From: Symbiotaphrina buchneri
Lineage: Eukaryota > Ascomycota > Symbiotaphrinales > Symbiotaphrinaceae
Assembly (NCBI GenBank): GCA_001599915.1
Contig: BCIG01000017.1
Coordinates: 248,001-312,000 of the forward strand
DNA: 64,000 nucleotides
Direction of reading: 5' to 3'
Each line of letters opens with the position of its first letter. The stretch's first letter is position 1. The notes beneath the pieces were generated by a model, which was not told where the DNA came from, ran no database searches, and was given only the letters and a program-made list of their open reading frames with translations. Made by a program: the position numbers and the translations under genes. Below are positions 137 to 64,000 of this stretch, in pieces.

Positions 137-2595
137 TCATACTGTGATAGTTACTGGTGGTTGTGGATTCGCCTTCGCGCGGCAGTCCTGACAAATCCAC
201 CCAAGTCGAGCCTCCTCAACCCCTACACACGACAAATGATAGCGGCCTACTCTGCAATAGATCTGGGACAATGAACCAGTCAGTAAGAGTGTCAAGCTGG
301 AATCAAAGTTGCAGTCTACTTTGAAGTTTGACTTACTCCACTAGAGCATGTAACGGAAGCATCATCTTGCAAAACATGCTCGCCACAGAGACAAACCTCT
401 TTGGAATGAGGTGAATATAAGCCGTGAGATTGCCGCTTGTGTTGAGCGACTTGGTCGAATTCTTTCTTTTGCGGGTCGATGGAAAGGTCTGCCGCCATCA
501 ACGTTGTTTTTTCCACGACAACTCTTGGCTTTTCTTGCGTATGATAGCCATTCACGTGAGTATTCGACACGTCCTGCATCTCGATGTCCTCGCCGTTCCT
601 GGGTCTTGAGGTCTCGCTGTCATTGTCAACGTCCATCCGATCACCGGGTGCACTGTGGACACCATTTGTATGAGGCACCCTGTTTTCTTCTAGCTCACGT
701 AAAGTCACGGTTTGTTCCCTGACATCATTGACCGAGGGTACTTCTGCTCTTCGATTCACACCTCGGATCATTTCGAGGCACTTTCGGATGTCGAGGACTG
801 AAATCACGCCGTACAAGAGGAGTTTTGAAGCCTTCTTTGTGAATTCATGGAGCATCTGTTCGTCTTGAAGCCAGCTCTTGTTTGCTCTGCAAAACCTTAC
901 CAAGGCTTGTGGTACGTAAACCTGAGCGGCCAGGTTCTCTTCCAGCATGTGCCTATCGAAACGCTTGATGAATTCCTTCTCTGCTATTGAAAGATCCGTA
1001 AAGTCGTCAATGGTTTCCGAGTGCTTCTGTTTGAGCCAAGCCTCATCCACATCATCGTCACTTTCACTCAGCTCTTCGCCCTCCTTCAATGGTCTCTTCG
1101 TGTTCGTACGGAAAAAGGCCTTTCCTGCTGGAGCCGCTGGTACTCGGAATTTCCTTTTACGACGCGGTGGAATTTCTGGTACTGTATCCGCGTCCGCGTG
1201 TAATGACACACTTGGATAAGGCTGTGGTTGGACCTCGCGTTCGAGGGCAGGAGATGTGGCTTTAACCGGCCCCTTCTTCTTGTGCGTTTTGCTAGTGCCG
1301 CCGCTCCAGCGCTGATCTCCTGCCAGATATTCTTGGAGATTGAAAGGCCTCTTTGGCCTCACCCAATCCATCAATTTCCATTCCTTTGATTTGCTGCTCA
1401 GACCAAGTAGACCAGGCTGCTCCTCGGTCGAAGCGCCTACTCTGATGACTATATCATCGTCTACAGTTCTTGACGATCTGCCCTGTCTGTGGACCTTGAA
1501 ATCAAAGAGAGGATGCCCAGTCACCAGATGGAAATGTAGCAGTTCACGAGAGCCAAAGTCACGCCCTCTGCAAAGAGGGCAGAGGAAGCCTGTAGCCTGA
1601 ATCTTCCTTGAGTCTGGCGCGTCGTTGGAAAACCAATTGCCCAGAATGTAGGTCAGACGAACAGGAGTGGCTGATGGGCCTGAATCCGACTCTGGTGGTG
1701 TAGGCAGCCTAGCAGCTGGTCGCTCTGATAGGCTCGAATTGTAGCGTTGTAGCGGGGTGGACAGTCTTGACCATAAGACATCAAGTTTGATGCTGTAGCC
1801 AGTCGGTTCACCATGCGTTTCTCCCACGCGGTTACGAAGATCAAGAGTCAACGTCTTCATGGAATCTGATGGCACGAACGTGGTTTTACCCGATACGTAC
1901 TCTGTGGATGTAGGACATCCAGATTGAACGCCGATGGCCGGAAGCAGCGGCCATGACTGCTTCCCATGGATCGGACTTAAGGAGACGCGAATGAGATATT
2001 CAGATCCCAAAGTGCGTTTCCACCACCCTCCATGGTGGATTGGTACTTTGAGTCGGCGAGCTTTGAAGATGAAGTCTTCATCAAGACTCATTCTAGCCAG
2101 AAACCCGTCCTCCTGGACTCTTGATAAATCCAACTCGCATTCTCGCGAGTCCTGGATTATGGTCCTTTTGTTATTGGATCTCGAGTCCCATATAGTGACT
2201 GAACAGAAACACGGGACTTTGTTACCGGTGGGCTCGAAATCGGGAGGTAGAGCCTGGCCGTCTTTGCGCTGGATGCCCTTGAAGTCAAGCTTGAATGTGG
2301 GCTCTTCAGAATAGTTTTCGTCCAAGATCCCGTCTGCTGTCCACTTGGACCTTTCACTGACCGGGACGCCCAAATTAACACCTTTTTGACGGAGATCACT
2401 AAAATCCGAGTCGCCTACCGGGCTCGGCCCAGTCTGCTTGCGGGTCCGCGCAGAGATGCGCTTATCATGATGAGCAATTACCTTCTTGATGTTCCTCTGT
2501 AGCACTACGCGCTGCCGATGCCGGTCAAGATCCTGGTAGAGCGCACCATTGCCAGTGAAGCGCCTCCGCACTTCTGCGTCGGCTTGGAATGCCAT
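137..2595 (-). CDS. Su(z)12-like VEFS-box protein with C-terminal PHD finger
   Basis: Likely Polycomb (PRC2-type) chromatin subunit. Exon 1 runs 2595-337 from ATG at 2595; the longer frame to 2607 begins with GTG. A 74-nt intron (336-263, GTAAGT..CAG with a TACTGAC branch) leads to exon 2 (262-137, stop TGA at 137-139). Seen: a C2H2-like zinc finger (FLCPLCRGRDF followed by HFHLVTGH) near residues 335-370, and a VEFS-box-like acidic/aromatic segment near residues 530-630 (DDVDEAWLKQKH, FCRANKSWL). Splicing exon 2 on completes a PHD finger: CLCG, TC-x4-C, RYHLSC and WICQDC give the Cys4-His-Cys3 spacing. Zinc finger plus VEFS-box is the Su(z)12 family layout; the terminal PHD finger is an addition to the animal architecture. 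Partner assignment (Ezh2/EED-like proteins) is inference. Length about 796 aa. Confidence 0.85.
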
Positions 2596-4132
2596 GGTCA
2601 ACAGCACACGTGACCTGTACTCCGCTGCCAGTCAGTTACGCCCTAATTCCCACCAACAGCAGCATGATGGGTTCAGATCGGGGGTACTGGAAGAAGCCTA
2701 CCTTTAACGAAGCAGAGTCTCAGTTGTCTTTGATAGAAAGTTCGCAAGTCGCGAGGTAACGCTTGCGCGCCGCGCCTTGACCCACCGATCGCTTAAACAC
2801 GTCGCTGCAGGCTGCTCCGAAGAGAGCTGAACGCTCATCTCCCGCCACGAGGGCTACACCCCGGTGATGGTGATGGTGATGATGAGCGCTGTACGTCCGG
2901 CTGACTGGATTTCACACTGGGACCCTCTTTTCCGTGTCGAGAATGGTGGAAGTGTCTCGCCGCGGACGTCTCGAGAATTCCCCTAAGGCTGAATTGAAGC
3001 AGTCAGACGACGGGGTGCAATGAATTAATCAAAGGAACTCTCGGCGCCGGTCGGGGAAGGATTTGGAGCATCCCAGCTTCGAGTGGACGCGCCTTCGAAA
3101 CTACCAGGAGGCGGAGGTGGGTGCCACACTTGTTGTTATTATGCGAGGCAGACGGGGTCCCACTCCCCACACCAAATGTCCGCACACTCGCATCAAAAAG
3201 ACCACACGATTTCAATGAATTGTGTGAGATGAAATAATCACGTACCGATCAATAGAGAAAGTCGCTGATGGGTGATCGTATACCTCCGCCAATATACACC
3301 CCACCCGTTGATTTCTGGTGTAAGAAGCTTGACGCGTTTATGTAGCACTGCCCTGGCGGCGAGCGGCGAGGATTCCGACTGCAGCGCGCGGCTGAGATGG
3401 CAGACGATGCTGACGATGATGGGTGTTGTGGCGGCGGAGAAGGATGGACGAGTGGAGGAAATAGCTCGAGTGCTTGTTGGTACTGTACTATTCTCTTACC
3501 TTGCCTACCGCCCTTACTACTCCTGCTCGTTTCCCTCTGCCCAGTGCCCATCCGCTTAATTATGAATGGTGGAGTTTTGCCTTCACGAAAATGGCCGCAA
3601 GGACCGCGAACTGATGATGCACGCTGATTGGTGCGCGGCTCTGCCTTGGGATTGTGAAATTGCGCTTAGAGGTGCAGGCTAGCCAGAGACGTCGTTAGCC
3701 CTTGGTGGACGATCCTTGCGGCCTTGCCGTATCGCCGCCTTATCCGCATCCCGACAATACAGTTGAGGCCGGTAAACGAGGGAGGGGACCACATCAACTC
3801 TGCGCCATATTAGCCCAACGCCGCATCTTTTCGAGCTTTAGAACCCGGTTTTGCACTCGGCAGCCCACGAAACCTAAGTGTATGATTTCTGGAGGCCTCA
3901 AACGGAGGTTACGTGAAAGTCACGTGATACATGCTCACGAATGCAAAGCGGAGCATAAGGTACAGTAGCGTACCTACCAAGCTTGGAGGGGAGCTAAAAG
4001 GCTGCAAGCCGGTGCGCATCATCGCAAGCCTCCTTCTCCTTCCGTCGTGCATCATCATCACCCAGGCCAACACCACGCATACTAGCATACTTTGCTGTCG
4101 AGGTCTCCGTCGCTACAGAACAGACTTCGGGT
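2596..4132. promoter_or_regulatory. Divergent intergenic region
   Basis: About 1.5 kb between the divergent VEFS-box and F-box genes, presumably holding both promoters. It contains a short GGTGAT microsatellite at about 2865-2886 and no coding region that I can support; the small open frames here lack homology that I recognise. Confidence 0.4.
2865..2886. repeat. GGTGAT/GAT microsatellite
   Basis: Short run of GGTGAT units in the intergenic region upstream of the VEFS-box gene. No function is evident. Confidence 0.6.
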
Positions 4133-6298
4133 ATGCGCCCTGAAAAGACTTCAGATGCGGCCCAGACTCGACGTCGTGGTGCCCGTCAGCAAATCGACTA
4201 TCGGGAGCCTAGTTCAGATGATAGCTACGAGGAGGAGCACACGGCTGCGCCCTCTTCCAGCGCCACCACTATAGCAAACCGTGCGATACGAAAGACTAAT
4301 AAACCGGATAGCAGCAACCGTGGTACGCCCAAGAAGAAGATGCCCCGCTCCAAAGTTCAACGAACCAGCCGTCCGAACCCTCGCCGACCCGTGAATGCCC
4401 GCAAGCAACGATCGGCACGACAGAGCGCGACCTCGTCTTCCTTTCTGCTTGTCAAAGGCAGCGGCGTCATTCCCCCTTGGCAGACCTTACCCTATCATAT
4501 ATTGCGACAGATCTTCGCCTTCGCGGCCTACCCTCTTCGTGATGATGTTTTTCAACCGCGACCGACCGTCGCTTGGCTCGCGAAAATCGCTCGTCTCTGC
4601 AGGGCTTTCAGCGAACCCGCATTGGCTGTCCTCTATTATGCACCACCTCTTGTTCCTACTTGGAGGGCCCATAGCTTCCTGGACCTACTCTCGAGGTCGA
4701 AGGACGATAACTTGACCAGCAAATATGAGAACAAGGTTCACCGCCTGGAGATGGAAGTAGTTCAGACGCTGGCATATTCGGTGCCAGGTCTGGGTCATTT
4801 CGACCTCTCTGCGCTGATACGACACACTCCCCTGCTACAAGATCTTGAGTTGTATCATATAAATGATCGACCGCCCTATCGAGACAGTGGCAAAACTACT
4901 GGAGCTAAATGGCGGTATCCTGACTCGCTCTTCAAAGCACTGGACGAGATGAAGATACGCCTCAGGTGCTTCCGATGGAACGCAGATATGTCTGGTCCGC
5001 TACAAAAGCCCGAACTGCTGAAGGACATCCATTAGTCCCCTGCGTTTCAGAATCTTCAGACACTAAGTTTTGTGAACTATCAGACTGGCCGAAGGAAAGG
5101 CAAGGACGATCCGTCCCAAACGGAGGAGACCTGGATTGCTGATGCTGTTTCGAATTTACCAAATCTCAAAAGTCTGACCTTTGAGACGTGTTCTATTGTC
5201 AATGACAGGTTTCTGCCTTTGCTACCTCAGAATCTTACAAGTCTTTCGATCATCAATTGTTTTGCTTTGACCTCAGACATCCTACATTCTTTTCTCCTCA
5301 CTCATGGCCACCAGCTTCGCCGGTTGGTTTTGCATCATAATCAATGCCTTAGCCTGTCATTCCTCACAGATCTTGCGTCAGCTTGCCCCAAATTGGAGGA
5401 GCTCAAGATGGACATGAGGTTTTACAGTTCGCAGTTCACATATAACGATTCAGAACCTCGGTTTGATGCGCTTCTCCGTCCCGGGGAGATCCCGACCTGG
5501 CCTTCGACTTTATGTGTGATCGAACTGGAGCAGCTGAGGAAGTGGGACGTTGAGACGGCAGAGACTTTTTTCCAGTCCCTGATTGATTCGGCCAGTGCCC
5601 TGCCCTATCTGAGGAGGCTCGTTTTGAAGGCCATCCTCCGTATTGGCTGGCGAGATCGTGCCGACTTCAGGGAGAAGTGGATTCAAAAGTTGAAGAAAAC
5701 TTTTCTAAGAAAGTCCGAGTTGCCTAACCCTCATTTGGCGACATTGAAAGCATATGAGCATTATAAGCTCTCTTTACGGACAAAGCAGGCAATCTCTATG
5801 CAGACCAACCGTTCAAGTGAGAATGATGGAGATGACCCTGTGAAACGACAGCGCACAGGTTTCGCTCCGAGCGATAATTCCCCTGGGACTCCCTCAGAAG
5901 TGCGGGGCAGTCGGGGTGAAACTGCAGCCAGTCAAGGCGATGTGGAGGCGCCAAAACGCAGAAGTACACGACTTGCGAAACCGGAAAAGAGAGCTTCGTC
6001 CAGCGAGCGGTCTGCGAGGTCTCTGAAGAGAAAGCTTGGCGAGAGTGGGACCGAGTTGCAAGATTCGAGCTATGAGTCGACAGGCGATGAGGTAGGGGTC
6101 GATGAAGATATAGTGGAGCTACCAACATCTAGGAGCCGGGTTCAAGGAATGTGCGAAGTTGTGGATGTACGCATCGACAATCTTAGACCAGCCGAGGCGC
6201 AATTCAATGAGAATGACTTTCTTGATTCAGAGGCCAGTGGAGATGAAGAATGGACGGGAGAAGACGGAACGGCGACAGATGACAGGTATGCATGGTGA
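4133..6298 (+). pseudogene. F-box/leucine-rich-repeat protein, interrupted by an in-frame TAG
   Basis: Single-frame gene from ATG 4133 to TGA 6296-6298, about 721 codons, with one in-frame TAG at 5033-5035 and no frameshift around it. Seen: disordered basic N-terminus (residues 1-110); an F-box-like helix set starting WQTLPYHILRQIFAFA (about residue 120); LRR-like repeats on both sides of the stop (LQDLELYHI, LQTLSFVNY, LPNLKSLTFETC, LRRLVLHHN); and a disordered acidic C-terminus with a basic patch (RRSTRLAKPEKR). Family role: substrate receptor of an SCF ubiquitin ligase, target unknown. The reading runs smoothly through the stop (KDIH, stop, SPAFQNLQTL), so it is either a recent nonsense change, a sequencing error, or programmed readthrough. 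No plausible intron removes it: the only nearby GT..AG pair (4995-5050, 56 nt) breaks the frame. Confidence 0.75.
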
Positions 6299-7324
6299 CG
6301 CCACATCTGATGGCTAAAAACGTTGAAGCTTGGATGGCGGTCTAATGTCTACGGCGTTTGATGGTTCGATTCGTGATGAGACTGCATAGCGAGGCGCAGG
6401 AATACGGGTGATTGAGAAAGCAATGCGGTATCGGGTGGAGCCGTTCGCTGTTCTGTCACAGCCTTCTGAGAATGGATTGCATTGTGCAGGTACTTGTACT
6501 GGGACGGAATACTCGGGCATCCTCAGAAAAGAGCTTATTCGTTGTAAATGTTGAGATGAACGAATGGATATCATTTGTTTCACGCGGCACCGTTGAGCAG
6601 CTTGATTGGAACAAGCAAAGGCATTGGCGCTCTGCTTGGTGGATAATAGATAGCATAAGATATATATCAGATCATAGATCACAGGTCCATCTACTTTGGT
6701 TCTCATTCAAACCGCTGGTGGTACGTTGACGTTACACATGACGCGGATTCCCGCAATGAGATCTTGTGGTAGGTGACACGGCACGGATTATCTCATGGGA
6801 TGGCGATACACAGCCCCGAACCGTATCCCTAAGGTAAGTGTAAGGCTGAGAGCAACACAATCGAGCAATAGGGCCAACATAGCCACAGCAGCTTAGTTTT
6901 TTCGTTGCCGCGTGTCATTGACCGACAGGGAGGATTTTGCCAAAAATGATGACTTTGTAAGGTTTACAGCGATGCTCTTTATTTCCTGACGGCTTGCGCG
7001 ATCGGTGCCTGTTTATGTTTGTTCGTTCATTGGACCCTTGCCGGAGCGTTATGATAACAACACGCCCACGCCCCCCCCACCACCACCACCNCCNCCACCN
7101 CCATCACCGCCATCACCAGCTCCAAGCTCCAACGCTCCGCCCTTTGTGAAATACAACCTCTTTCGCTTCACCGCATCTTCGCCTACCTTATATACGAGGC
7201 CAAAGAATCTGACCCTCCTCCTGCCTCCCTCTAACGACTCCCTCACCCTCGACCGCACAGCGCCTCCCTCACATATTCGTGCCGCTGTCGTCCGCTGGGC
7301 GCCGTGAGCATCCCAGTCCAGCCG
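6299..7324. other. Intergenic region with ambiguous C-rich tract
   Basis: About 1 kb between two same-strand genes. It presumably holds the terminator of the F-box gene and the promoter of the WW-domain gene. A C/CCA-rich tract at about 7063-7105 contains four N bases. No coding region is supported. Confidence 0.4.
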
Positions 7325-30942: not shown

Positions 30943-33900
30943 CTAAGCGGACGCGCCAACGGCAATGGGAGCGGCTTCAGTGACATCGAGCAGCTCGTAG
31001 GGAGTTCGACGGACGATGCCGCCCGTGACGGGCAGAGGGGTAGCTTTCATCAGATAGGTGTCCACTTCGCGAGCAGCTTGGCGACCCTCGTTGATACCCC
31101 TAGAGACAGTCAGGAAAGGTTGTTGGTCAGATATTGACGGGAATCGACTTACCAGACGATCAATGACTGCCCGCGGCGACAATCACCCGCCGCGAACACC
31201 CCAGGAACGGACGTGTTATACTGCCCGGGAGGGGTCTTGATGTTCTTCCGGCCATCTTGCTCAATCTTACCAGCCAAAAGGCGATCCTCCGGACCCAAGA
31301 AGCCCATTGAAAGGAGGACCAGCTCCGCTGGGAAGTATTGCTCACTGCCCTCCACTTGCTTCATATCCCAGCCACCGGAGGCCGACTTGGTCCACTCTAC
31401 GCGGACAGTGTTGATGCCTTTTACGTGACCATTGTCATCACCGACGAATTCCTTGGACATAACGCAGTACTCGCGCGGATCCCTTCCCATGTGAGTCTTG
31501 ACTTCGGTGTGTCCGTAGTCAACTCTGTAGATGCGGGGCCACTGAGGCCAGGGGTTATCACGGGCGCGCTCCGGGGGTGGTTGAGGCAAGAGCTCGAAGT
31601 TGATGACGGACTTGGCGCCGTGACGGACAGCGGTTCCAATGCAATCATTGCCGGTGTCACCGCCTCCAATCACGATAACGTTCTTGCCCTTGGCGGAGAT
31701 GTACTCATTGTCAGCCAAACCAGAGTCGAGCAAGGATTTAGTGTTCTTGTGCAGGAATTGCATGGCGAAATGAACGCCTTCCAGGTTCCGGTTGGGAATA
31801 GGAAGATCTCTCGCAACAGTGGCACCTGTGGCGATAACAACCGCGTCATTCTGGGACCTGAGATCGTCCAGGCTGATATTGTCGGGACCAATTGCGCAGC
31901 TGGTCACGAATTTTACGCCCTCCGCAGCCATGAAGTCTACGCGGCGCTGAACCACGTTCTTGTCAAGCTTCATGTTAGGGATGCCGTACATCAAAAGGCC
32001 ACCGACACGATCGGCCCTCTCATACACAGTGACCGAGTGTCCTACTCGGTTGAGCTGGTCAGCAGCTGCAAGTCCAGCGGGACCAGAGCCGATTACGGCG
32101 ACCTTCTTCCCTGTCCGCTCAGGAGGCGGCTTGGGAACAAGCCATCCCATCTCAAAGCCTCGGTCGATGATGGCACACTCGATAGATTTGATACCAACAG
32201 GGTCCTCATTGATGCCAAGTACGCAGGCCCCTTCGCAAGGAGCAGGGCAGACGCGGCCAGTGAACTCAGGGAAGTTGTTCGTCATCAGAAGACGGTTGAG
32301 CGCGTCTTGCCATTGGTTCTGAAAGACCAGCTCGTTCCATTTTGGAATGATGTTGCTGATGGGGCAACCACTGTCCGATTGACAGAATGGCACACCACAG
32401 TCCATGCAACGAGCAGACTGGTATTTGAGTTCGTCCTCATTCAACCGGGACGACAATTCTTGCCAGTCCCTGGTCCTCGTCTTGGGATTCCGGTATTTTT
32501 CAGCACGGCGCTGGTACTTCATGAAACCGCGCGTCTTGTCCAGAACCAGCGTCGATCTCTTCTTCTCTGCCTTTTCATCACCCACTGTCTCTTCAATATC
32601 CATCAGATCCTTTTTCTTCTGAACCTCTTCTTTATGCTGCTGGTTCTTCAGGGAGTCTTCATGAGAGCCCCGCACTGGGTTACCCGGCAAGATCGGCAGA
32701 GGATATTCTGATTTCTTGGCTGCCGCAGCCTTCTCCGCTTCTTCAGCAAGCACACGCTTGTAGTCCGTCGGCAGAACCTTGACGAATCGTGGGAGGGCGC
32801 GATTGAAATCAAGAAGAATGCGGGCTGCAAGCTCCGAGCCCGTATAATGATGATGATCCTCAATGAGGCCCCGCACGAAAGCGATCTCAGTAGGCTCCTC
32901 AATAGCCGACAGTTCAACCATCTCCATGTTGACCTTCGATGGGAAATCTTGCATCATGTCCAAAACATAAGCTATTCCACCAGACATTCCGGCGGCAAAG
33001 TTGCGTCCAGTACCGCCAAGGACCAGTACCCGACCTCCGGTCATATACTCACATCCATGATCGCCAAGGCCTTCAACGACAGCTGTAGCTCCCGAATTGC
33101 GCACAGCGAAGCGCTCTGCAGCCACTCCACGGAAGAAACAGGTTCCGCTTGTAGCACCATACAAGCATACGTTGCCAATGAGCACATTCTCTTCGGCTTT
33201 GAAAACAGCAGTCCTAGGAGGGTAGATGATAAGTCGTCCTCCAGACAAGCCCTTACCGACATAGTCGTTCGCATCACCCTCCAGCTCGAGAGTGACACCC
33301 GGCGCGAGGAAGGCACCAAAAGACTGACCCGCAGAACCGCGGATATTAGCATGAATGGTATCCTGAGGGAGACCAGCTTCACCGTAACGACGACTGATCT
33401 GGTAGGATAACGTAGCCCCAAGAGAGCGGTCAGTGTTGACTATGTCTGTTTCAATCCGCACAGGCAGCCCCTTTTCCAGCGCCAGCTCAGATTCGGCGAT
33501 GAGCTTGTTATCGAGCCGTGTGTGCAACTTGTGGTCCTGTTTGCGGACATTGTAGGTTGCAACTCCCGGGCGTAAAGAGTGTGCCGGGGTGAGGATCAGC
33601 GAGAGGTCAATGTTCTCGGTCTTCTTCGTGCGAAGGTCGTCACGAACGCGCAGAACTTCACAGTGGCCTACCATTTCATTGATAGTGCGGAATCCAAGCT
33701 TGGCCATGATAGCCCGTAGCTCGTTTGACACATAGTAAAAGAAATTGATCACATGCTCTGGCGTGCCGGTGAACTTCTTGCGGAGCTCAGGATCTTGAGT
33801 AGCGATACCCACAGGACAGCTGTTCAAGTGACAATTTTGCACTACCAGGCGATTTTCGAGCTGGAATTGGCCTCCGCTGACTTCAATGGCTCTATATTCC

Positions 33901-36900
33901 CCAGCCGGTGCATCTTGAACCTTGAAAGGGCGTGCATCATGAGTGTAGTAAGACTTCTGAAAGTTCATCTTCTTCCTAGCCAAGAGGAGATGATGTTGGA
34001 ACTTCGCAGAGCCTTTCCCCAGATAGCAGATGTACTGAGGGTTGATTTTGCCATCCGGATCGTTCGGGACAAGAGATTCTCCCATGTCAACACCTGTAAC
34101 CGAAATACCGCAACTGAGAGCCAATTGCTTCAGATCATAGACAATCTTTCTGTGCTCCTCCGTAATTTGCATGAACCGGTAGGTATTGTGCGATTTCACG
34201 TAGCATCCATCACTTTCGATGAGACCAGCAATGACAGCAAGACGCGTATCTTCATCTGCCTGCATATAGACATCGGGAATACCGGCAGCCTTATTCTTGA
34301 AGATTCCAAGCTGCTGCAGACCGGTCCGGACAGGGTTCCACCAGTATGAATCGAGGCTATCGTTTCCCGGACAGGTGATCTGGTAGACATATGTATCTTC
34401 TTTGCAGACGTAGTCATTGAACACGACCTTCCCAGCAGCTGAGCTCAGTCGTTCTCGTAGGACAACAGGACGGGCACCAGCAGGTCTGTTCATGTTCAGC
34501 CGATCGACATATCGTCGGAGCCAGACAGCGTGTTCCCTATCGGCACTTGCAATGGTGGTGTCTGCAGCTGATCCGTCTCCCAGCCAGAGCCCAACAAAAT
34601 AGGGGTCCAGGGGTACGTGTCGCTGCTCGAGAGACAACACAGGAGGATCGAATCTTAGGGGTGCCCGGTAAAGTTTTAGAAGGACGCGTTTGACCTCTGG
34701 GGAGCACAGACGCTCGTACTCTTCCACGGTCATGGTGAACTCGTCCATATCACGGACAATCAGCGGGTCAATGAGATGATGGTGATCGCCAGTCAGGACC
34801 TCGTAGACTTGTCTGGCCTGTGCCTCGTTCTTGAAACGCCTAAAGATCTTCCGGAAACCACCGCACGAACACTCTTTCCTATCGATGGACTTCCGAACAT
34901 GTTCAAACTTACTACCAGTGGCAGTACTCAGACTTATTGACGAAGTATCAAGGAAGACAGAGCTGGGAGGCACATCGCCAGCTATGATAGCATCAATAGA
35001 CGGAGAGACAGGCGGAGAGCTTGGAGGGGCAGGTCCCGGTGGCGAGTTAGGTCTCGTTGGTGGTGAGCTAGGTCTCGTTGGTGGTTTCGCCGGATCTGAC
35101 ATCGAGACGTCTGAGGTAGGTAAGTCTAGATCGATAAAGCGTTGTCCGAGTTGACCGCGGTCAACTTGCATATCGTCAGAATCGAGGCTATCGATTCCCA
35201 TTTCTAGTTCACCGCGGCGGAGTTCCAACACTGATGCTTCCCGTATATGACGATCCATGGCTTCATGCATAGCTTCTCTGACCAGTGTAGGGGATGCCTC
35301 AAGTTCTCGATTAGCTAGAACTTCCAGGTATTTGTTGAACAAGAACGAATAATCATTGCCTCTGTGATAATGTTCGTCCAGGACAGTATCCACATACTCG
35401 TGTAGACGCTCAGGTTCAGGAGGTTCGAATGTATTATCTATTAGATCTTTATAGCAGTACTCGGCCACGAAATCCATATAGAGGCTCGCATTTTCACGAA
35501 CTGTTTCATGGCGATCGCAGCGAGTAAGCCAGGTGACCGTATTCCGGGACAGAGACGGCGTAGTGCCTGTGGCGACCAACGTCAGGTGATGATCGGGCGT
35601 ACACCTAAACGTAGTAGTTTGCCTTGAATCGAAATCCTGATATGAGACCTCTTTCAAGGGCCCGTTGACTGCAGGCAAAGCACCAGTGCAGAGAACGGGG
35701 TTGTTATCCGCATCGTAGAGATAATCCCCAATTTGGACGTCCGCAACCCGTTTTAGTCCTGTCTTGGTACGAACCATGGTATCAGAGGCGAGACACTTGC
35801 GCATCATGATGCAGCCCATGGCGATCAGAGGCGTTGTAGCAAACCCAAACTCTTCGGCTCCAAGTAAACATGCGATGGCAACGTCGCGACCCGTGCGGAG
35901 TTGACCATCAGTCTCCACAGAGACACGACCGCGCAAATCGTTCAAGACGAGTGTTTGATGGGTCTCAGCTAAGCCCAATTCCCAAGGAAGACCAGCATAC
36001 TTGATACCAGTCCATCTGGAGGCACCAGTACCACCGTCATGACCGGATATCAATATATGGTCAGCGCGAGCCTTGGCCACGCCAGAGGCGACAATACCCA
36101 CTCCGGTCTCGGAGACAAGTTTGACCGACACGCGAGCTCGGTGATTGGAGCACTTCAGATCGTAGATCAGCTGTTTCAGATCTTCGATCGAGTAGATATC
36201 GTGATGTGGTGGTGGCGAGATCAGACCGACCCCTGGTGTGGAGTGCCTGGTCCGTGCGATCGGTCCGGAGACTTTGTGGCCAGGCAATTCACCGCCTTCG
36301 CCAGGCTTGGCCCCTTGCGCCATCTTGATCTGGATCTGATCGGAATCGGCAAGGTAATTGGACGTCACTCCAAAGCGAGCAGATGCAACTTGTTTGATCG
36401 CAGACCGCATGGTATCTCCATTCTCCAATCGCAGACTACGTTCCGGATCTTCTCCACCTTCACCAGTGTTGGATTTTCCGCCAAGGCGGTTCATGGCAAC
36501 GGCCAAAGTGGAGTGCGACTCCATCGAGATGGAACCGTAAGACATCGCACCGGTGCAGAAGCGGCGCACGATCTCGGTCCACGGCTCGACCTGATCAATA
36601 GGGACAGGGGTCCTCTCCTCGAAATTGAAATCCAACAAGCCGCGAAGGGTGCAGTTCTTAATCTGTTCATACTCCGCAAGAGAATATGCCTCATATGACT
36701 TATCATTTTTTGTACGAACCGCATCCTGGATGTTTGCCATCGCGACCGGGTCGTTAATATGGGCTTCGCCACCATCACGCCAGTGGTATTCTCCTGATTC
36801 GGCCAGACCCGGAATATCGTTGATCAGACGGGAAGGAAAACCTCTCTCGTGGAGCGAAAAGGCATCTGTAGCGATGAGGTCGAAAGTGAGACCCTTGATA

Positions 36901-39532
36901 CGAGTAGCGGTCCCAGTAAAGCACCTGTCCACTACCGAATCATCCACACCAAGAGCCTCGAATATCTGAGCGCCTTTGTAGCTCTGGAGCGTAGAAATGC
37001 CCATTTTGCTCATGACCTTCAGGATGCCGCCGTCACAGGAATACTTGTAGTTGTTGACAAGCTGCTCATCAGTGAGCTTCTTCCTGATCAGGCCTTCCCT
37101 GTTCATCTTCATGATACATTCCATGGCCAGATACGGACAGATAGCGTCCGCGCCATAACCGACCAGAACACACATGTGGTGCACCTCACGAGCCTCCGCA
37201 GTCTCAACAATCAGCGCGGCAAGAGATCGCCATTTGTTGCGAACCATGTGATGATGGACCAGACCGGTAGCAAGGAGAGAAGACACAGGGACACGGTCTT
37301 TGGAGATGGCACGGTCTGACAGAATCAGAATCTTGTCGTTGGCGTTGATGGCCTCTGTCACAGCGTCGCAGATATTATCAAGAGCCTTCATATAGCCCTG
37401 CAAGCCCTCCGCCTTGGGGAAGGTGATATCAATCATCCTCACCGTCCAATCGCTGTGGACAGCAGTGATGTTCTTCACGGCATTGAATTCCGGAATTGAC
37501 AAGACAGGAGATGGCAACAGCAGCCTGTGGCATTGGGATGAACTCATCTCCAGAAGATTACCTTGTGGACCCACATAGCATTCCAGAGACATCACAATTG
37601 CCTCCCGAATAGGGTCTATCGGAGGATTGGTGACTTGGGCGAAGAGTTGACGGAAATACTCGTAGAGCATGCGGGGTTGTGTTGCAAGGCAAGCAAGTGG
37701 CGCATCATTGCCCATGGAGCCGAGGGCTTCCTTCGAATCCGCGGCCATAGGACCCAAAATCAGGCTAACTTGTTCAAAAGTGTAACCGAAGGCTTTCAAT
37801 AGAGGGTCATCTTGGATGTGCAGATCGTTCAACTTGTAGTCAAGGTCAGTACCCTGCTCTTTCAGCTCATCGAACACAGCTGGAAGAGTGAGCAGCTCTT
37901 TCTGGAGCCACGAACGGAAATCTTGTCTGTTCGCGACGGTGGCCTTCAACTCGGCGTCATCGACGATACGACCAGCAACAGTATCGACCAACAACATCTT
38001 TCCGGGCTGCAATCTGCCCTTCTGAATGACGCGTTCAGGGTCGATCATGATGGTACCGACTTCAGAAGCGCAGATGATTCGGTCGTCATCCGTCACGTAA
38101 TATCGGCATGGACGCAATCCATTGCGGTCGAGATTCGCACCACAATAGCGCCCGTCAGCAAAGGTGAAAAGAGCCGGCCCATCCCATGGTTCCATCAAAC
38201 AAGCTGCCCACTCGTAGAAGGCAGCCTTTGCAGGATCAATGGCAGTGTTGTCTTGCCACGCCTCTGGGACCATCAACATGACTGCCTCCGGCAGGGAGAG
38301 TACACCGTTGATAGTCAACAACTCTAATACGTTATCAAACGCTGCAGAGTCTGAGCCACCGTCTTCCACAATGGGATACAGTAGATCTAGATCACTGCCA
38401 AAATAATCGGATTTCATCAGCCCTTCCCGAGCTCGCATCCAATTCTTGTTTCCACGCAGTGTGTTGATTTCACCTGTAAAATCCATGAGAATGTGGCAGA
38501 ATACTGGAAGACTTTGGAGACCTACCATTGTGAGCAGCCCACCGCAATGGCTGAGCACGGTCCCAACTAGGGAACGTGTTGGTGGAGAACCGGGAGTGGA
38601 CCAGCGCAAAATGTCCCTCGTAATCTACAGACACCAGGTCATGATAATACTCATACACTTGGACAGGAGCCAGCTGTCCTTTGTAGACGATGTTTTTGTT
38701 GGAGAGCGAACAGAGATAGAACCAATTATGGAGCCCGATCATGTGAGTTGCCCGTTTTCGCAGGACATACAGCTGTCTCTCGAAATATTTCTCGTCGAAA
38801 GATTCCGGATCAGTCATCTCCGGAGCATTGCCCATGCCGTAAGCCGACTTGAGCACCACAAAGGGTTGCAGAACCAAGGGTTCTCGCGACAATGCTGCCG
38901 GGCCGAGCAGACTCGAGTCCCTCGGAACCTCTCTCCAGCCAAGCACACGCAGGTCCAGAGAATCGACGATATCTTCGAATATCTTTTGGGATTCCTGCAA
39001 GACCTCCGGGTCAGGCTTGAAGAAAAGATTCCCTGCAGCGTACTGGCCCTGAGGCGGCAACTTGTAGTCACTCTCGCGCTCAAAGTTCTTGATGAAGAAC
39101 TTGTGGGGGATGGAGGTCATCACTCCCGCACCGTCTCCATCTCTTGCATCAGAGCCCACAGCCCCTCTGTGGGTCATGTTGCAAAGCAGATTGCGCGCTG
39201 TCACACGCAGCGTCAGCACCGATGTCCTCTCAATTGGGTTAAAAAGAATCGGATTTACCATCACTTATGATCTTGTGGCTCGCCTTGCCCTTTATATGGC
39301 TGATTGGAAGTCAGCGACGGCACCCAAGGGTGTTAACGGGCTCCAGGGAGACATACGCAGCAAAGCCGACACCGCACGCATCCTTCTCGAGGGTCGGGTC
39401 ATACAGACCCTGCTTCACGGGCAAGGCGCCTGCCCAGGACCCATTGTCAGGAGTGTCGTCGTATTCGTACGGCACGTAAGGTTGTTCTTCCTCGATGTGT
39501 TTTTCGTTGATTTCCTCAAGGATACGACCCAT
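30943..39532 (-). CDS. GLT1: NAD(P)H-dependent glutamate synthase (GOGAT), intein-containing precursor
   Basis: Five exons: 39532-39357, 39299-39265, 39197-38526, 38473-31153, 31099-30943; precursor 2786 aa, and 2132 aa without the 654-residue intein, which matches fungal GltA. Exons 1-3 assemble [17 protein letters not shown], whose Cys53 is the glutaminase N-nucleophile exposed after propeptide removal. Seen in order: class II glutaminase domain; central domain; FMN synthase domain ([32 protein letters not shown], a [3Fe-4S] site); GXGXG domain ([13 protein letters not shown]); then the small-subunit region with CMDCGVPFC iron-sulfur ligands, [13 protein letters not shown] (FAD) and [10 protein letters not shown] (NADPH/NADH). 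Role: makes two glutamates from glutamine and 2-oxoglutarate. The frame stays open about 28 codons above the chosen ATG but contains no other ATG; the start could lie in an unseen exon. Confidence 0.97.
33834..35795 (-). mobile_element. Intein with LAGLIDADG homing endonuclease inside GLT1
   Basis: In-frame insertion of 654 residues between CIMMRK and CHLNSCPVG of glutamate synthase; residues 1188-1841 of the precursor. Splicing blocks: block A begins Cys1 ([13 protein letters not shown]), block B is [12 protein letters not shown] (residues 63-74, T-x-x-H present), block F is [16 protein letters not shown] and block G is LVVQN followed by the +1 Cys. Two LAGLIDADG helices are intact in sequence: [10 protein letters not shown] (399-408) and [11 protein letters not shown] (520-530), each ending in the acidic catalytic residue. 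Between blocks B and C lies a Pro/Ser-rich linker (about 236-268) and a Cys/basic patch ([14 protein letters not shown]). The penultimate residue is Gln rather than the usual His. GLT1 inteins are known in several ascomycetes. Base composition resembles the host gene. Confidence 0.96.
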
Positions 39533-57643: not shown

Positions 57644-58909
57644 ATGACCGATACCGCGCCTCCAGCACAGCTGCTACCCCTGAAGACCAGGCTCGAGACG
57701 AGAGATCAGGTAGCCCTGGGTGAGTCACTTCCTAGCAGATGGCGAACTTGCTGTTAGACTGACATTGCGACGCAGTTGATGTCTATGTTGCGCAGGTCCC
57801 CGCCAAGGCCGCGAATAAGCTTCTCAAGTAAATCCTCCCCTCTCAGCCGGTCAGGGGCTGGCTCTAATTCTTTGCGCAGGATCTTCCGGGTCGCAGTACC
57901 GGATGATGTTGTCGACTTACAGCATCTCCGGCGGCTCTCGAAGCTGGACTTTCTCCCCGCCCATCTGAGGGTTCCGGTATCAGGATCCGATGACAATGAC
58001 GGTGATGGGGCCCGCTCGCTTTTCATGCTTCTTTGCTCAACCGAGAATATGTCGCTATCTCGTCTACGCTGTTTACTCTCCGAGCATGCAGACAGTCTTG
58101 GAGGTGACTTCGGTGCTTCTGTCCAGATTGTTTCGGTTCCTCGTCTGGCACCGACATCTGAAGAGCAAGCCAAACATTGGAGCAAGATGTATTGGCCTAC
58201 GGTGTACAAGCGCACGAATCCCTTTGGTGCTCACCCGTCTATAGTGGACCGTGCCCAGAAGGAGATCGAGCCGCAAGTGCCAGTGTGGATGGCATTAGCC
58301 CGAAGGGTGGCGGGTGAAGCGGCTTCATGTGGAATAGGTGAAGCTGTAGGGACTGTCATCGTGGACAAGGACGCACCCGGTGGGCCGCGCCCTGTTGTCG
58401 TTGCCGCAGATGGCCGGTGGGCGAGCTGCCGAGAACAAGCCAATCCTCTTGCTCATGCGGTGATGCGAGGGATTGGGATGGTGGCCCGACAGCGGATGGA
58501 ACTTGCATCACGGGCGGACGGCTCCGCTACTCTCGCGGCAGATGCCAACCCGAGCCTTGAATCTCGGAGTTTTCTCGACCAGCCAATGACTGCACTCGAG
58601 ACGGAGTATTACAGAGCTAGCCCCCTGACTCCAGGGGGTTATCTATGTCTATATCTAGACATGTATGTCACTCATGAACCTTGTGTTATGTGTTCCATGG
58701 CCATCCTTCACTCGAGGTTTGGAAGGGTCATCTTCGGGGAGAGAATGCCAGGTACAGGCGGTCTCACAGCTGAAGTAGAGGCCGGCGGTCTCGGTTATGG
58801 CATGTTCTGGCGGCATGAGCTCAACTGGAAGTTGTTGGCTTGGGAGTACCGGGAAGTGCGACCGGATGATAGCACTGACGCTGCTGTAACTGCGCATTTC
58901 CATGCGTGA
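57644..58909 (+). CDS. TAD3: tRNA-specific adenosine-34 deaminase subunit Tad3
   Basis: Three exons: 57644-57719, 57776-57827, 57880-58909, giving 385 aa. Seen: N-terminal domain (VDVYVAQVPAKAANKLLK, LQHLRRLSKLDFLPAHL) and C-terminal cytidine-deaminase fold with NPLAHAVMRGI and THEPCVMCSMAILHSRF. The proton-shuttle Glu of active deaminases (HAE) is Val here (HAV), which is the Tad3 hallmark: a zinc-binding but catalytically silent partner of Tad2. Role: the Tad2-Tad3 heterodimer makes inosine at the wobble position of tRNAs; essential. Ends FGYGMFWRHELNWKL-like segment and acidic tail. Confidence 0.95.
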
Positions 58910-58994
58910 CATGGAGATTTCGGCGCAGGCGCAAAGGGCTGGCGTTGGCCCGGTCAGGCGTCGCTGTATACAGTGAATATATCGTTTTACGATC

Positions 58995-59055
58995 ATCGTC
59001 AACATCTTCATCTTCATCTGCATCTTCATCTGCATCTTCATCATCATCAACGTCT
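58995..59055. repeat. CATCTT/CATCATC microsatellite
   Basis: Imperfect CTTCAT/CTGCAT hexamer run ending in CATCATCATCAA, just downstream of TAD3. Confidence 0.7.
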
Positions 59056-59091
59056 ATCGGTCGATTTACCGATTCCCATTTGCCGTTTCTA

Positions 59092-59915
59092 CGGCCTTCA
59101 AAAGTCGCACACCTGATTTGCATGAGCGCCTTCTGGTCTACCTCGGCGCTCTCCTGTTCCTGCGCTGTGATACCGTACCAGTCTAAAGTTCTGGGCGTCG
59201 AAAGGCGCTCACCAGAAATGTATGAGCGCCTTGTGGTCTACCTCGGCGCTCTCCAAAACCTCGCTGCGATAGCCGTACCAGCCTAAAGCTCTGGGCGTCA
59301 TAAGGCGCTCACCAGAAATACGTGAGCGCCTTATGACGCCCAGCCTTTTAAGATTTGGTGTCCTTCAAAAGTCGCCCACCTGATTTGTATGAGCGCCTTT
59401 TGGAGGACATCGTCGCCCATGTTATCTTGGTGGAGAGTCGAAGTCTTCCGCTAAAACCCTTGGCTTCAGAAGGCGCTCACCAGAAATAGGTGAGCGCCTT
59501 TTGGAGGACATCGTTTCTCGTATTATTTGGTGTGCAGATAATGTAGCGAGCTAAAGCTCTGGGCGTCAAAAGGCGCTCACGCTATTTCTATGAGCGCCTT
59601 ATGAAGCCAAGGGCTTTAGCTCTACCTGGCCGACGGTGCTGGATCTATGAGGGCACGGAGTATCGCGATAGCCAAGCTGGGCGTCAAAAGGCGCTCACGT
59701 ATTTCTGGTGAGCGCCTTTTGGAGGACACCGGCGCTCATATCCATCTGGTGGCCGTAGATGTATCGCGCTATAGTTCTGGGCGTCAAAAGGCGCTCACGT
59801 TATTTCTATGAGCGCCTTTTGGAGGACACCAAAGCTTAAAAGACTGGGCGTCATAAGGCGCTACGCCAAAATACGTGAGTGCCTTTTGACGCCCACAGAA
59901 GCTTAAAAGTCTAAT
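59092..59915. repeat. Modular palindromic array: seven 31-bp hairpins, mostly 100-bp period
   Basis: Seven 31-bp palindromes with 9-nt loops start at 59202, 59302, 59470, 59570, 59688, 59788 and 59855. The arms are AAGGCGCTCAC and GTGAGCGCCTT. Right-half copies lie at 59123 and 59390. Distances between successive TGAGCGCC cores are 100, 100, 67, 101, 100, 118, 100 and 67 bp. Spacers are 69 bp (three times), 87, 36 and 137 bp (the last contains a half repeat). Spacer edges are conserved (TTGGAGGACA on one side, CTCTGGGCGTCA on the other) while centres vary. Loops occur in two orientations (CAGAAAT or ATTTCT). Palindromy extends to 22 perfect base pairs at 59291-59312/59322-59343. No coding potential. 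Confidence 0.93.
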
Positions 59916-60770
59916 TGAGATATCGACAGTGGCTGACCATAAACCGCAGCTTACACGCATATCCCTCCTCCAGCAGGAGCTCGCACCTCAACGTGGTGTT
60001 GGAGTCTAGAAACCCATTGCACACTGGGCGAAGCTAAGACGAGCTCACGGTCGATACCGAATGCACCCCCTCAGCCCGGTCCCTCGCCCGAATCGAATCG
60101 AGGGGACGGTCGAATCGATACGACGATATCGACTCCAACGAATCTGATCGTAATGGCCTACGGATCGGAGTCAATTAATCGATGTCATAGAAACAGCTTT
60201 CCACCTGATAGCTCCAGCCAACCGTCAGCTAAGCAAGCGTTGTCTTCAAAACTACCGGCCGCTGATACCAGCCGGTCTCGTATTACGAGAAAATCAAAGG
60301 CGTCATATGATATCATTCTTTTGCGGATTTTCAGACAGTACATGGCCGGTGTTAGGACGTGAGCTATGGATGGCGTAAAGATATAGCTAGTAGCAGCGTA
60401 GACACAGGTAAAGCGTATGCGTCAACGATAACAACTACGAGTCGAGGTCAAGACTGATCGCTGAGCTCTCAGGGTCAGGATCAGAATATGGCTAAATAGC
60501 TAAGTAGAAGCCGTCGAGGCGCTTAGGACACAACCTATTATTGTACCAGCCTTACACCCGGGGCATATATCGAGCTACAGGCCATCCAATCTTGGCCCAA
60601 AAGTGTTAGGGGTGGAGAGATGAAGGTGGCATGGATCTATCCCTCTTTCTCCTCTTTTCGTCATGGCTTGGACTCTGTGATTGTAGGTAAATACGTCTGA
60701 CCGTAATATACTTGAATAGAGGAGTAAGAAGCGAGTGAACATTTATCGGCCGTCCTCAAGGGTGATTCCT
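59916..60770. other. Transition region without genes
   Basis: Roughly balanced composition, no supported gene. A patch rich in TCGA/CGAATC words lies at about 60085-60175. It leads from the palindromic array into A+T-rich DNA. Confidence 0.4.
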
Positions 60771-61234
60771 CTTTTTTAAAAAAATTAGTCCTTAAGAGTC
60801 GCAAGTTCGCAAGTTCGCAACTCATGACTTACGGCCTCTCAGACTTAGAGTTTCAGACTCTCAGGGGTGTTGAAATCAAAAGTTTTTAAACTGAGAAAGT
60901 TACTGAATTTTAACCTACCTGGCACCCGCTTATACAGCCCCTACCAGAATCAGTATAGGAATCAACATCTAGTCAGGAGTCTATGACTTAGGTGCGACCA
61001 GAAGATTTAATTGTCTTTCCTATGAAAGAATAACTGCAAATGACCATTATGACATCCTGGATTGTTTACAGACCTTCTACCGTTCTAAGTTCATGAAGTA
61101 TATCCCCTATATCATGTAGTTAACTGTTAAAGAATAGAAATTATAAAGATGATAATAAGTCTTTGTTTACTATGGTAGAAATCATCAAGATAGATAAAAT
61201 TATCAGGAACACCTTGTACAGACTAATACAATAA

Positions 61235-62110
61235 CAAGCTTGTTATTGGTATAGTATATACCACTGTGAAAAGGTATAATAGCGGAAGGAATACAGCTTG
61301 GAGCGGTGTAAATGTAGAAGCAGGTGTGAATGCTGATTGAATTGCTTACTTTCTACCTGGGGGTTTTACGCCTCTTTTATAGACGTGTGTAGGAGATAAT
61401 TTTTACAGCTGGAATGTTCTAGCATGTTTGGTAATCTTGTTGATTACCAATGTTTTGTAATGCTTACAAATGCTTGGTCATCTGCTGATTACAAAGCATA
61501 TTGAATGTTCTAAAAACTTCCAGGAATTTTTATAGGCTTCTAGAAACTTCTATAGGCTTCCATGGGTTTCCATGGACTTCTGGCTTTTTGCCACGTTCCA
61601 CATTCACGCCCTACCGTGGTTTCTAGAGCTTTCCAGGATAATAGCGCTTATTATCGCTTACTATTTTAACAACCACTAGTTATAAATATATCATACCAGC
61701 ACTAAATATGGTCTGGTATTAACTTTTAGTACCAGTAGTACTTAATCATGAATAATGATACCATATTCTACCAACATTAAATATAGTATGTATCAGATTA
61801 CCAGATTAAAAAGATAAAATAAGAAAAATATCCTATCAAAACTACCATTTTTAAAAAGGGTATATAACTAGTATTTAACAAGTTTTATAATTAAACAAAT
61901 TATATTTGATCCGGTTTAATATACAAGGTAATTTATATTAATATATATTAATATATTTTACTATTTATTAATGTTTATAAATATAAGGTAAGTTAGATAT
62001 AAAAAGGTAAGTTAGTTAGAATACAATTATTTCTTGTGTTTTAGTTAAACTATCATTTTATATCTTTTAACACTTTTAGTTTATTATTCTTCTATAGTTT
62101 TACCATTATA
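61235..62110. repeat. A+T-rich repeat family, copy A (split by a solo LTR)
   Basis: Begins AAGCTTGTTATTGGTATAG, is interrupted at 61265-61671 by an LTR, and resumes with the same sequence order as copies B and C (ATACCAGCACTAAATATGG, TACCATATTCTACCA, TTTATAAATATAAGGTAA). It is the most A+T-rich of the three copies. Confidence 0.8.
61265..61671. mobile_element. Solo LTR of an LTR retrotransposon
   Basis: A 407-bp element starting TGTGAAAAGG and ending ATTTTAACA (TG..CA borders), flanked by the 5-bp direct repeat ACCAC at 61260-61264 and 61672-61676. No internal region is attached. A Ty1/copia-like family is plausible but cannot be decided from an LTR. It sits inside a copy of the A+T-rich repeat, so it is younger than that repeat. 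Confidence 0.88.
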
Positions 62111-62123
62111 GAACCTAAGGTCA

Positions 62124-62715
62124 GGCTTGTCATTGGTATGGTATATACCAGGCTTGTCATTGGTATGGTATATATGACCAAATACGAATATATCTGATAA
62201 CACCAGTGTTAGATATGGTCTGGTATCAACTTTTGGTACCAGTGGTACTTATTCATGATACCATATTCTACCAGTGTTAAATGTGGTATAATACCAGATT
62301 ACCAGATTAAAAAAATAAGATAAAGAAATTTTTTCTTTTGGAAATATCATTTTTAAAGGGATATAGAACTAGAACTTGGTAAGTTCTGTGACTATATTTA
62401 TAGTAACAAGCTATACCTAATTGGGTTTGATGTATAAGGTGGTTTGTATTGGTGTGTATTAACGTGTATTAGTGTGTATTAGTATACATTAATGTGTATT
62501 AGTGTGTATTAGTGTGTATTAGTGTGTATTAGCATGTAGTATTAGCACGTATTAGTTTGTATTAGTATGTTTTACCAATTGTTAGTACTTATAAATACAA
62601 GGTAAGCTAAGTCCAAATAGATGGGTTGGTTGGAATATGATCATATTTTATATTTTCTTAAATTCTAACCAAGTTGTTCTAAGTCCTTTTTACACTTTCA
62701 ACTTGTTGTTACCCT
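62124..62715. repeat. A+T-rich repeat family, copy B
   Basis: Starts with a duplicated lead-in (GGCTTGTCATTGGTATGG at about 62125 and 62153), then follows the same order as copy C: GTGTTAGATATGGTCTGGTA, TACCAGTGGTACTT, a GTGTATTAGT tandem run (about 62446-62540) and TACAAGGTAAGCTA. About 0.6 kb. Confidence 0.85.
62446..62570. repeat. GTGTATTAGT tandem repeat
   Basis: About ten imperfect 10-bp units (GTGTATTAGT and variants) inside copy B; fewer units occur at the same place in copy C (about 63585-63640) and degenerate TTAATATATA units in copy A. Confidence 0.85.
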
Positions 62716-63288
62716 GTAGTTCATAGTTACTGTAAAATCTAAAAGCTAGAAAATGATAATATCTTAACTATTCCTAATTGGATTTTGAAATTTTAAAAAG
62801 GGTATTATTCAACAATAAATTTGTTATATAACAGTATTTTTATTATTTTAAAAGGTTGATTATGTATAGAGATAAAATCAAGTTTTGCTTAAAGTTACTT
62901 ACTAAATGCTTAATCAACTATATAAGTAATACATAATGAATACTTGGTGGTAGTATTTATATTCATAACTAATGGTATCTGGTAGTAGGGGTTTGAACTA
63001 CCATATATAGTCAAGTTTCTTGACAGGTAAGCTTAAAATGTTGAAATACCATACCATACTATAACAACAACAAGCCTGAATACTGGTATAGTATATTTAT
63101 AACTAATGGTATATACTATACTAACAACAAGCCTAAACCTGTTTATTGAGCTTTAACTGTATAATCCTTTCAAAAACAGTAATTTCAAACAGAAAAACTT
63201 ATAACATTATTTGGTTATTAGTAAAACAAAACCAAATTAAAACCCAGTGATTTTTAATTAAAAACTGAAAAACCAAACTACCTTATAA

Positions 63289-63771
63289 ATCAAGCTTGTT
63301 GTTGGTATGGTATATACCACTAAATACAAATATACCACACCAGTGTTAGATATGGTCTAGTATCAACTTTTGGTACCAGTGGTACTTAGTTATGATACCA
63401 TATTCTACCGGCGTTAAATGTGGTATAATACTAGATTACCAGATCAAAAAGATAAGATAAGAAATTTTTTTCTTTTGGAAATGCTATTTTTGGAAGGGGT
63501 ATAGAACTAGAGCTTGGTAAGTTCTGTTAACATATTTGTCAGCATATACTATACCTAATTGGGTTTAGTTTACAAGGTGGCTTGCATTAGTGTACACTAG
63601 TGTATATTAGTGTATATTAGTTTACATTAGTGTGTTTTATTATTTGTTAGTGTTTATAAATACAAGGTAAGCTAGGTTCAAATAGGAAGGTTGGTTGGAA
63701 TATGATCATATTTCATATTTTCTTTGAATTCTAACTGAGCTGTTGTTCTAAGTTCTTTTTGCACTTCTAAC
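63289..63771. repeat. A+T-rich repeat family, copy C
   Basis: Starts AAGCTTGTTGTTGGTATGG and runs through the same landmarks as copy B, ending at an LTR insertion at 63772. Copies B and C are clearly closer to each other than to copy A. Confidence 0.85.
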
Positions 63772-64000
63772 TGTGAAAAGGTATAATAGCACAAGGAATA
63801 CAGCTTGGAGCGGTGTGAATATAGAAGCAGGTGTGAATGCTGATTGAATTGCTTACTATCTACCTGGGGGTTTTACGTCTCTTTTATAGATGTGAATAAG
63901 AGATAATTTTTACAACTGGAATGTTCTAGCATGCTTGGTAATCTTGTTGATTACCAATGCTTTGTAATGCTTACAAATGCTTGGTCATCTGCTGATTACA
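63772..64000. mobile_element. Second LTR copy, cut by the window end
   Basis: The first 229 bp of the same LTR family, same orientation as the solo LTR, starting TGTGAAAAGG directly after CTTCTAAC. The right end lies outside the window, so it may be a solo LTR or the start of a full element. Confidence 0.85.

Follow-up and report, generated by a model that had tools for sequence, protein, structure and literature searches.

A low-copy family of hairpin arrays in the Symbiotaphrina buchneri genome, possibly the remains of an old foldback-like element rearranged at its palindromes

A repeat family of low copy number, unusual and of a generally known kind, is indeed present in the genome of Symbiotaphrina buchneri and carries a clear record of hairpin-centred rearrangement. 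The member analyzed here is an array of short palindromes located in a window of 64,000 nucleotides (positions 248001-312000 of contig C17). Our data suggest, with a probability of about 0.55, that an old, non-autonomous, foldback-like DNA element, now apparently inert and rearranged at its hairpins, survives in three copies, of which this array is one. No function is indicated for it.

The array is composed of nine 37-bp hairpin units at positions 59099-59888 of the window, each consisting of a 13-bp arm, an 11-nt loop and a second 13-bp arm. The units start at 59099, 59199, 59299, 59366, 59467, 59567, 59685, 59785 and 59852, such that the start-to-start distances are 100, 100, 67, 101, 100, 118, 100 and 67 bp. 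An earlier reading of this DNA, made from the sequence only (the sequence-only reading), had given exactly these eight distances and counted seven hairpins; eight distances need nine units, and nine were found with the core pattern GGCGCTCA-N11-TGAGCGCC. With up to three mismatches allowed, this pattern matched nine times in the window, always within 59104-59883 (six perfect matches, two with 2 mismatches and one with 3), whereas 100 shuffles averaged 0.38 matches and never had more than 3. The same reading had assigned every hairpin a length of 31 bp and a 9-nt loop, but 37 bp, as 13 + 11 + 13, fits best, and the core pattern with a loop length of 9 instead of 11 had no matches. A 9-nt loop is feasible only where the loop closes as CAC/GTG, which, judged by eye, is the case in three of the nine units; one of these three folds with a 7-nt loop. 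DNA folding was done for five of the nine units, alone or with their flanks, and unit 3 together with its equal flanks formed a 68-nt hairpin (59283-59350).

We describe the array in its own orientation, which is the minus strand of the window, so that its right end carries the lowest coordinates. Unit 1 (59099-59135), recognized with the hairpin model and the core pattern, has a degenerate left arm and forms the right end of the element. Units 2 (59199-59235), 4 (59366-59402, also with a degenerate left arm), 5 (59467-59503), 6 (59567-59603) and 8 (59785-59821) were delimited by unit alignment and the core pattern, unit 7 (59685-59721) by both of these and folding, unit 3 (59299-59335) by folding and loop comparison, and unit 9 (59852-59888), the left end of the element, by loop comparison. 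Spacer comparison identified a 30-bp spacer at 59336-59365 that is an inverted copy of the one at 59822-59851, as well as an 81-bp spacer (59604-59684) whose relative, at 69% identity, is an 82-bp spacer on C18. The array fades out at 59889-59935 in what appears by eye to be the degenerate beginning of another spacer.

Searches of the 23.4-Mb assembly (82 contigs), a check of the kind put forward along with the sequence-only reading, revealed related copies on contigs C11 and C18 and a remnant on C20. The array had at least 22 matches in the genome, all on C17, C18 and C11 (copy counts from these similarity searches are lower bounds), and the hairpin with perfect core arms occurred at 15 places in 23.4 Mb, all of them at the C11, C17 and C18 loci, as compared to 0 for the reversed control. 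The C11 copy (locus L023) is composed of two arrays, at ~4617-5033 and 5982-6322, around a centre of ~950 bp, and the C18 copy (locus L024) likewise of arrays at ~4242-4935 and 5711-6148 around a centre of ~780 bp. The two centres are related (82.5% identical over the best block) and apparently non-coding, with a longest stop-free stretch of 98 codons. The C17 copy is a single array without a centre. The degenerate remnant on C20 (locus L058, ~1275-1430, its right part judged by eye) has 73 bp in common, at 84% identity, with the left edge of the C18 copy. Further copies were sought with the array itself, the element on C18, the centre from C11, the flanks, short patterns and the C20 remnant, and nothing related to the array turned up beyond C11, C17, C18 and C20. 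The short patterns did match outside the loci at one exact place on C13 and at eleven places with one mismatch; the exact place and four of the eleven were examined, none fits the hairpin model, and these five are taken as chance. The array had no blastn match in plasmids or phages, and one 21-base pattern had no exact match in viral contigs or in bacterial and archaeal genomes. An assembly artefact, for which only the repetitive nature of the DNA speaks, is hardly credible given that the three copies differ in sequence and in their flanks and lie on separate contigs.

The copies differ from one another by ~15-22%, and their corresponding end modules, with correspondence assigned from module order, are 78-86% identical. 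In array orientation, the left end of all three reads hairpin-30-hairpin (the number being the spacer length in bp). The right end of C11 and C18 reads hairpin-30(inverted)-hairpin-63/64-hairpin, and that of C17 is the same plus one extra 63 when the unit at 59199, not the one at 59099, is taken as the last hairpin. The C17 array and the second C18 array, moreover, share two consecutive spacers, the first of 62/63 bp (75% identical) and the second of 81/82 bp (69%). The end modules are inverted copies of each other, and C11 has a 116-nt inverted pair across the element, 75% complementary; the long spacers have one and the same orientation in the two arrays, which makes these arrays direct repeats no less than inverted ones. 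The three copies and the remnant sit at unrelated places with different flanks, as is expected of a foldback element. Their number, a lower bound, falls short of the high copy number expected of a MITE, and the core hairpin, present at three loci only, lacks the genome-wide dispersal expected of BIME or REP sequences. The outer edges of the copies fade into degenerate units, and the exact ends of the element are therefore uncertain. Past the right end, a flank at 58862-59090 that contains a GAT-type microsatellite is common to C17 and C11 and absent from C18; by pairwise alignment it is 82.7% identical to C11 at aligned positions, with 75 gap columns, and by genome search 71%.

Several of these features would also suit a palindromic satellite-like array that arose once, was copied between chromosomes by ectopic duplication or repair, and was never a transposon: the edges fade, the copy number is low, a flank is common to two copies only, the arrays are direct and not purely inverted, and no target-site duplication was found. 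We consider this history possible, but clearly less likely, since all three copies agree in their left-end module string and very nearly in their right-end one, and two have a common centre, as for a unit with ends, and since the gene flanks are unrelated.

A target-site duplication was sought around the copies among exact words of at least 6 nt, the lengths of which did not exceed those in shuffles, and among 8-10-nt words with one mismatch, which were not more frequent than in shuffled sequence. Neither search yielded one; this is weak evidence, since the copies are 15-22% diverged, their ends are uncertain, and a duplication may have decayed. L023 and L024 contain 26 ORFs of at least 100 aa, all outside the elements, and a Pfam scan assigned a transposase domain to none of them. 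The genome has one MULE match, on C18 with 3 in-frame stop codons, and one Helitron match, on C20 with 9 in-frame stop codons, both away from the elements, and no autonomous partner linked to the C11 or C18 copy was found. Since neither a target-site duplication nor a transposase gene next to the C11 or C18 copy was found, we do not claim foldback membership. Of the three origins proposed by the sequence-only reading, a foldback or MITE expansion nevertheless comes closest, with these two negatives, and a count of only three copies and a remnant, set against it.

Spacers provide a second source of information. The three loci contain 26 of them, of which seven are exactly 30 bp, 17 are 58-65 bp and two are 81-82 bp long, and they are related among themselves, strongly for the 30-bp and most long ones and weakly (66-69%) for a few. 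Since its spacers are related, this is not a CRISPR array, and the CRISPR-like appearance noted earlier is superficial; no cas-type domain was present among the ten window ORFs scanned with Pfam. The seven 30-bp spacers occur three times in one orientation and four times in the other, and loops occur in both, which bears out the description of the array as unlike a head-to-tail satellite; with such mixed orientation it is not a simple satellite. Among the 58-65-bp spacers, by contrast, 16 of 17 have their nearest relative in the same orientation, so that the claim of modules in both orientations holds for loops and 30-bp spacers and, for the most part, not for long spacers. Similarly, what had been described as two 67-bp units in inverted copy is true of the 30-bp spacers within them, which are inverted copies at 90% identity, and a spacer edge said to recur inverted does so: CTTGGCTTC at 59459-59467 returns in inverted form at 59603-59611. 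In 15 of the 17 spacers of 58-65 bp, a GAGCGCC-like half arm lies at a distance of exactly 9 nt from the right end; a partner arm for it, as a fossil hairpin would have, was not enriched in the long spacers. A coding array was considered and rejected, as the spacings 67, 100 and 118 are not multiples of three.

The turnover of loops in place is much more rapid than that of the stems and spacers that surround them. Among four module strings of the right end (six comparisons), 93 of 198 loop positions differ (47%), as compared to 35 of 288 in outer arms (12.2%), 32 of 180 in inner arms (17.8%) and 75 of 554 in spacers (13.5%). At the left end, where three comparisons give small numbers, the corresponding counts are 38 of 66 for loops (58%), 4 of 96 for outer arms, 10 of 60 for inner arms and 12 of 88 for spacers. 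(The hairpin at L023:5990-6046, which contains a duplication, was left out of the set of 30 aligned units described below and of the covariation, loop, spacer-divergence (hairpins) and loop-inversion counts.) The loops fall into several classes, and the mean distance of a loop to its nearest relative, out of 11 positions, is 1.27 in direct orientation and 1.63 in reverse complement; for the latter, 500 shuffles averaged 4.83 and never fell below 3.57. With a class threshold that we set at 3 of 13 differences, 24 loop pairs at five corresponding positions comprise 7 that are the same, 2 inversions and 15 of different class, several of which lean to inversion.

The loop of the left-end hairpin (unit 9 in C17) has clearly been inverted in place. 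The C17 and C18 versions of this hairpin differ at 14 of 37 positions, and at only 2 once the central 15-21 nt of one of them is flipped, while the outer arm end TTATG stays where it is; among loop-shuffled controls for this pair, 0 of 2000 gained as much from flipping. A second loop has probably been inverted in place as well. Among the pairs that lean to inversion, the loop of unit 3 (59299) differs from that at C11 6177 at 10 positions directly and 4 when inverted, and from that at C18 4788 at 11 and 5, and it is nearer the inverted than the direct form in all three comparisons with corresponding C11 and C18 loops. Inversion of this kind supports the proposal of the sequence-only reading that the modules are joined at palindromes. 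Two further changes are centred on hairpins: one hairpin in C11 contains a 20-bp duplication (L023:5990-6046), and one in the C20 remnant has collapsed to 17 bp (L058:1340-1356).

The recombinase sites loxP and FRT have 13-bp arms around an asymmetric core, a layout that the 13-11-13 palindromes resemble, and a site-specific inversion system similar to a shufflon, with the palindromes as recombinase sites, would be expected to leave loops and short spacers in both orientations. We regard such a system as highly improbable, however, because a loop that is inverted while its own outer arms keep their markers is not expected from a crossover between two sites, because the cores are of several classes, and because 16 of the 17 long spacers keep the orientation of their nearest relative. 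More probably, a nascent strand stalled in one hairpin may pair with the opposite arm of that hairpin or with a different hairpin, and such strand switching could flip loops, swap loops, flip short spacers, and delete or duplicate sequence at hairpin centres. Strand switching is possible since every arm is nearly the same and palindromic; with arms alike in all units, a strand could re-enter at any hairpin, which would produce exchanged loop classes and edges common to otherwise different spacers. Excerpts from PMC8794818 describe template switching across a hairpin that inverts the loop and leaves the stem in place. Ordinary recombination between inverted repeats leaves the same traces, and here the two are indistinguishable. 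With respect to the foldback-like element, its ancestor would have moved, or been copied, as a unit of ~2 kb, and in the simplest history, with one ancestral element, the C17 copy would have lost its centre and most of one array through deletion between hairpins. As a description of that history, the earlier suggestion of a recombination-active hairpin array is apt.

There is little sign of selection for an RNA or a binding site: no covariation is seen between the arms, and those at the right end are about as diverged as the spacers. Arm pairs were formed in 89.7% of cells, as compared to 89.3% in shuffles, and 2 cells were changed on both sides, as compared to 1.4; this low two-sided change also counts against template switching, which could leave more. 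An array that acts in cis, either as sites for a dimeric protein on the 13-bp arms or as a regulatory or replication element, would be consistent with the 37-bp length of 30 of the 31 full units at the three loci (by a hairpin-model search that allows gaps, the fixed-length unit scan covering 37 bp only), with the uniform 30 bp of all seven short spacers, with the invariance of 12 of the 37 positions across 30 aligned units, and with left-end outer arms that diverge less than spacers, which also counts against a dead element. We nonetheless judge a cis-acting role improbable, given the divergence of corresponding right-end arms, loci that adjoin unrelated genes, and one copy that has no centre.

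Still less likely is a structured non-coding RNA, which was the last of the three origins first proposed, or a role of the array in supplying double-stranded or small RNAs. The hairpins are stable as single-stranded DNA, but palindromic DNA yields such hairpins anyway, and compensatory change is no greater than chance. A weak point in its favour is that five Rfam matches in L023 and L024 are to generic microRNA hairpin families; these and a sixth, to a snoRNA, scored far under the gathering threshold, a level that no match reached in the window or in these two loci.

Repeat-induced point mutation (RIP) leaves a mixed picture. CpA, the RIP context, was never the single commonest transition context in the six array comparisons, and it was the commonest in the centre block (11 of 27). 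Of the array indices, substitution (1.22) and composite (-0.12) speak against RIP, and product (1.10) is above that of the genic part (0.68).

The genes near the three copies are unrelated. The C17 copy is adjoined by an ORF with a deaminase domain, and the C11 copy lies between a chitin synthase and a TRP_N-domain ORF; the C18 copy has a GAS2-domain ORF on its right and, on its left, neighbours without a Pfam match, with DUF2011 and DUF3402 ORFs further out. The chitin synthase is 71-76% identical to the best 120 of 1434 relatives, many of the named ones being lichen-allied Ascomycota known from metagenome-assembled genomes, and among 72 relatives of a window protein none exceeds 48% identity; the fungus therefore probably has no close relative in that database. 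A position at the border with A+T-rich DNA, to which attention had been drawn in C17, is thus not a trait of the family, since ORFs of ordinary genes flank the copies on C11 and C18. To the right of the C17 array, 59965-60975 contains pieces of dispersed repeats with at least 16 other matches in the genome, and 61001-64000 is A+T-rich (27-31% GC), with RIP composites of 0.12 to 0.52 and 10-bp tandem repeats at 62445-62574 and 63585-63633. Elsewhere in the window, a glutamate synthase ORF (31149-38609, minus strand) has matches just under the Pfam cut-offs to LAGLIDADG_3 (E 1.6e-4) and Hom_end (8.6e-4) at residues 1454-1516, between the Glu_synthase and GXGXG domains, and probably contains an intein, as judged from these domain matches; inteins in glutamate synthase occur in other fungi. 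An ORF at 316-2607 (minus strand) encodes a VEFS-box protein, likely a Su(z)12-like subunit of PRC2, and the fungus may therefore have H3K27 methylation.

Short palindromes repeated at intervals are also found in fungal mitochondrial palindromic repeats and in CRISPR arrays. Unlike the former, the array described here lies on large contigs with nuclear genes, and unlike the latter it has spacers that are not unique. In layout, the closest look-alikes are the bacterial interspersed mosaic elements (BIMEs) formed by REP palindromes, which, as presented in excerpts from PMC2817692, similarly have regularly spaced short palindromes, inter-palindrome segments, a mosaic order and an extragenic place. 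REPs, according to the same excerpts, usually exceed 100 copies per genome. Unlike those BIMEs, the family described here resides in a fungal nuclear genome, at three loci and a remnant, and its spacers are related among themselves; the parts of the literature that we covered contained no such array in a fungal nuclear genome. It is doubtful, though conceivable, that this is a eukaryotic nuclear counterpart of BIMEs, a mobile family of recombining palindromes in which hairpin-guided strand switching, perhaps driven by an enzyme, would power spread and diversification, with loops and spacers as exchangeable cassettes.

The inverted loop with a stem kept in place is shared with the template-switch hairpin mutations in the excerpts from PMC8794818. 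Those cases are single hairpins of RNA genes, whereas here whole arrays are involved, loop classes have been exchanged between hairpins, and compensatory changes in the stems are no more than chance. The three copies represent a natural record of how short palindromes behave in a nuclear genome over long times, and offer a compact system in which to test template switching at eukaryotic hairpins.

As they appear in excerpts from PMC3169594 and PMC1952172, foldback elements share with the present family dispersed copies, composite ends made of internal repeats, left- and right-end module strings that are inverted copies of each other, and a centre that here is apparently non-coding. In the same excerpts, Tm1 of root-knot nematodes is a member of the Mutator/Foldback family with an 8-10-bp target-site duplication; here, neither such a duplication nor a linked transposase was found. 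The present family also differs from the foldback elements in those excerpts in that its end repeats are themselves palindromes, its arrays are also direct repeats, and its copy number is very low. Taken as an element, the family would broaden the foldback type to include ends that consist entirely of small palindromes.
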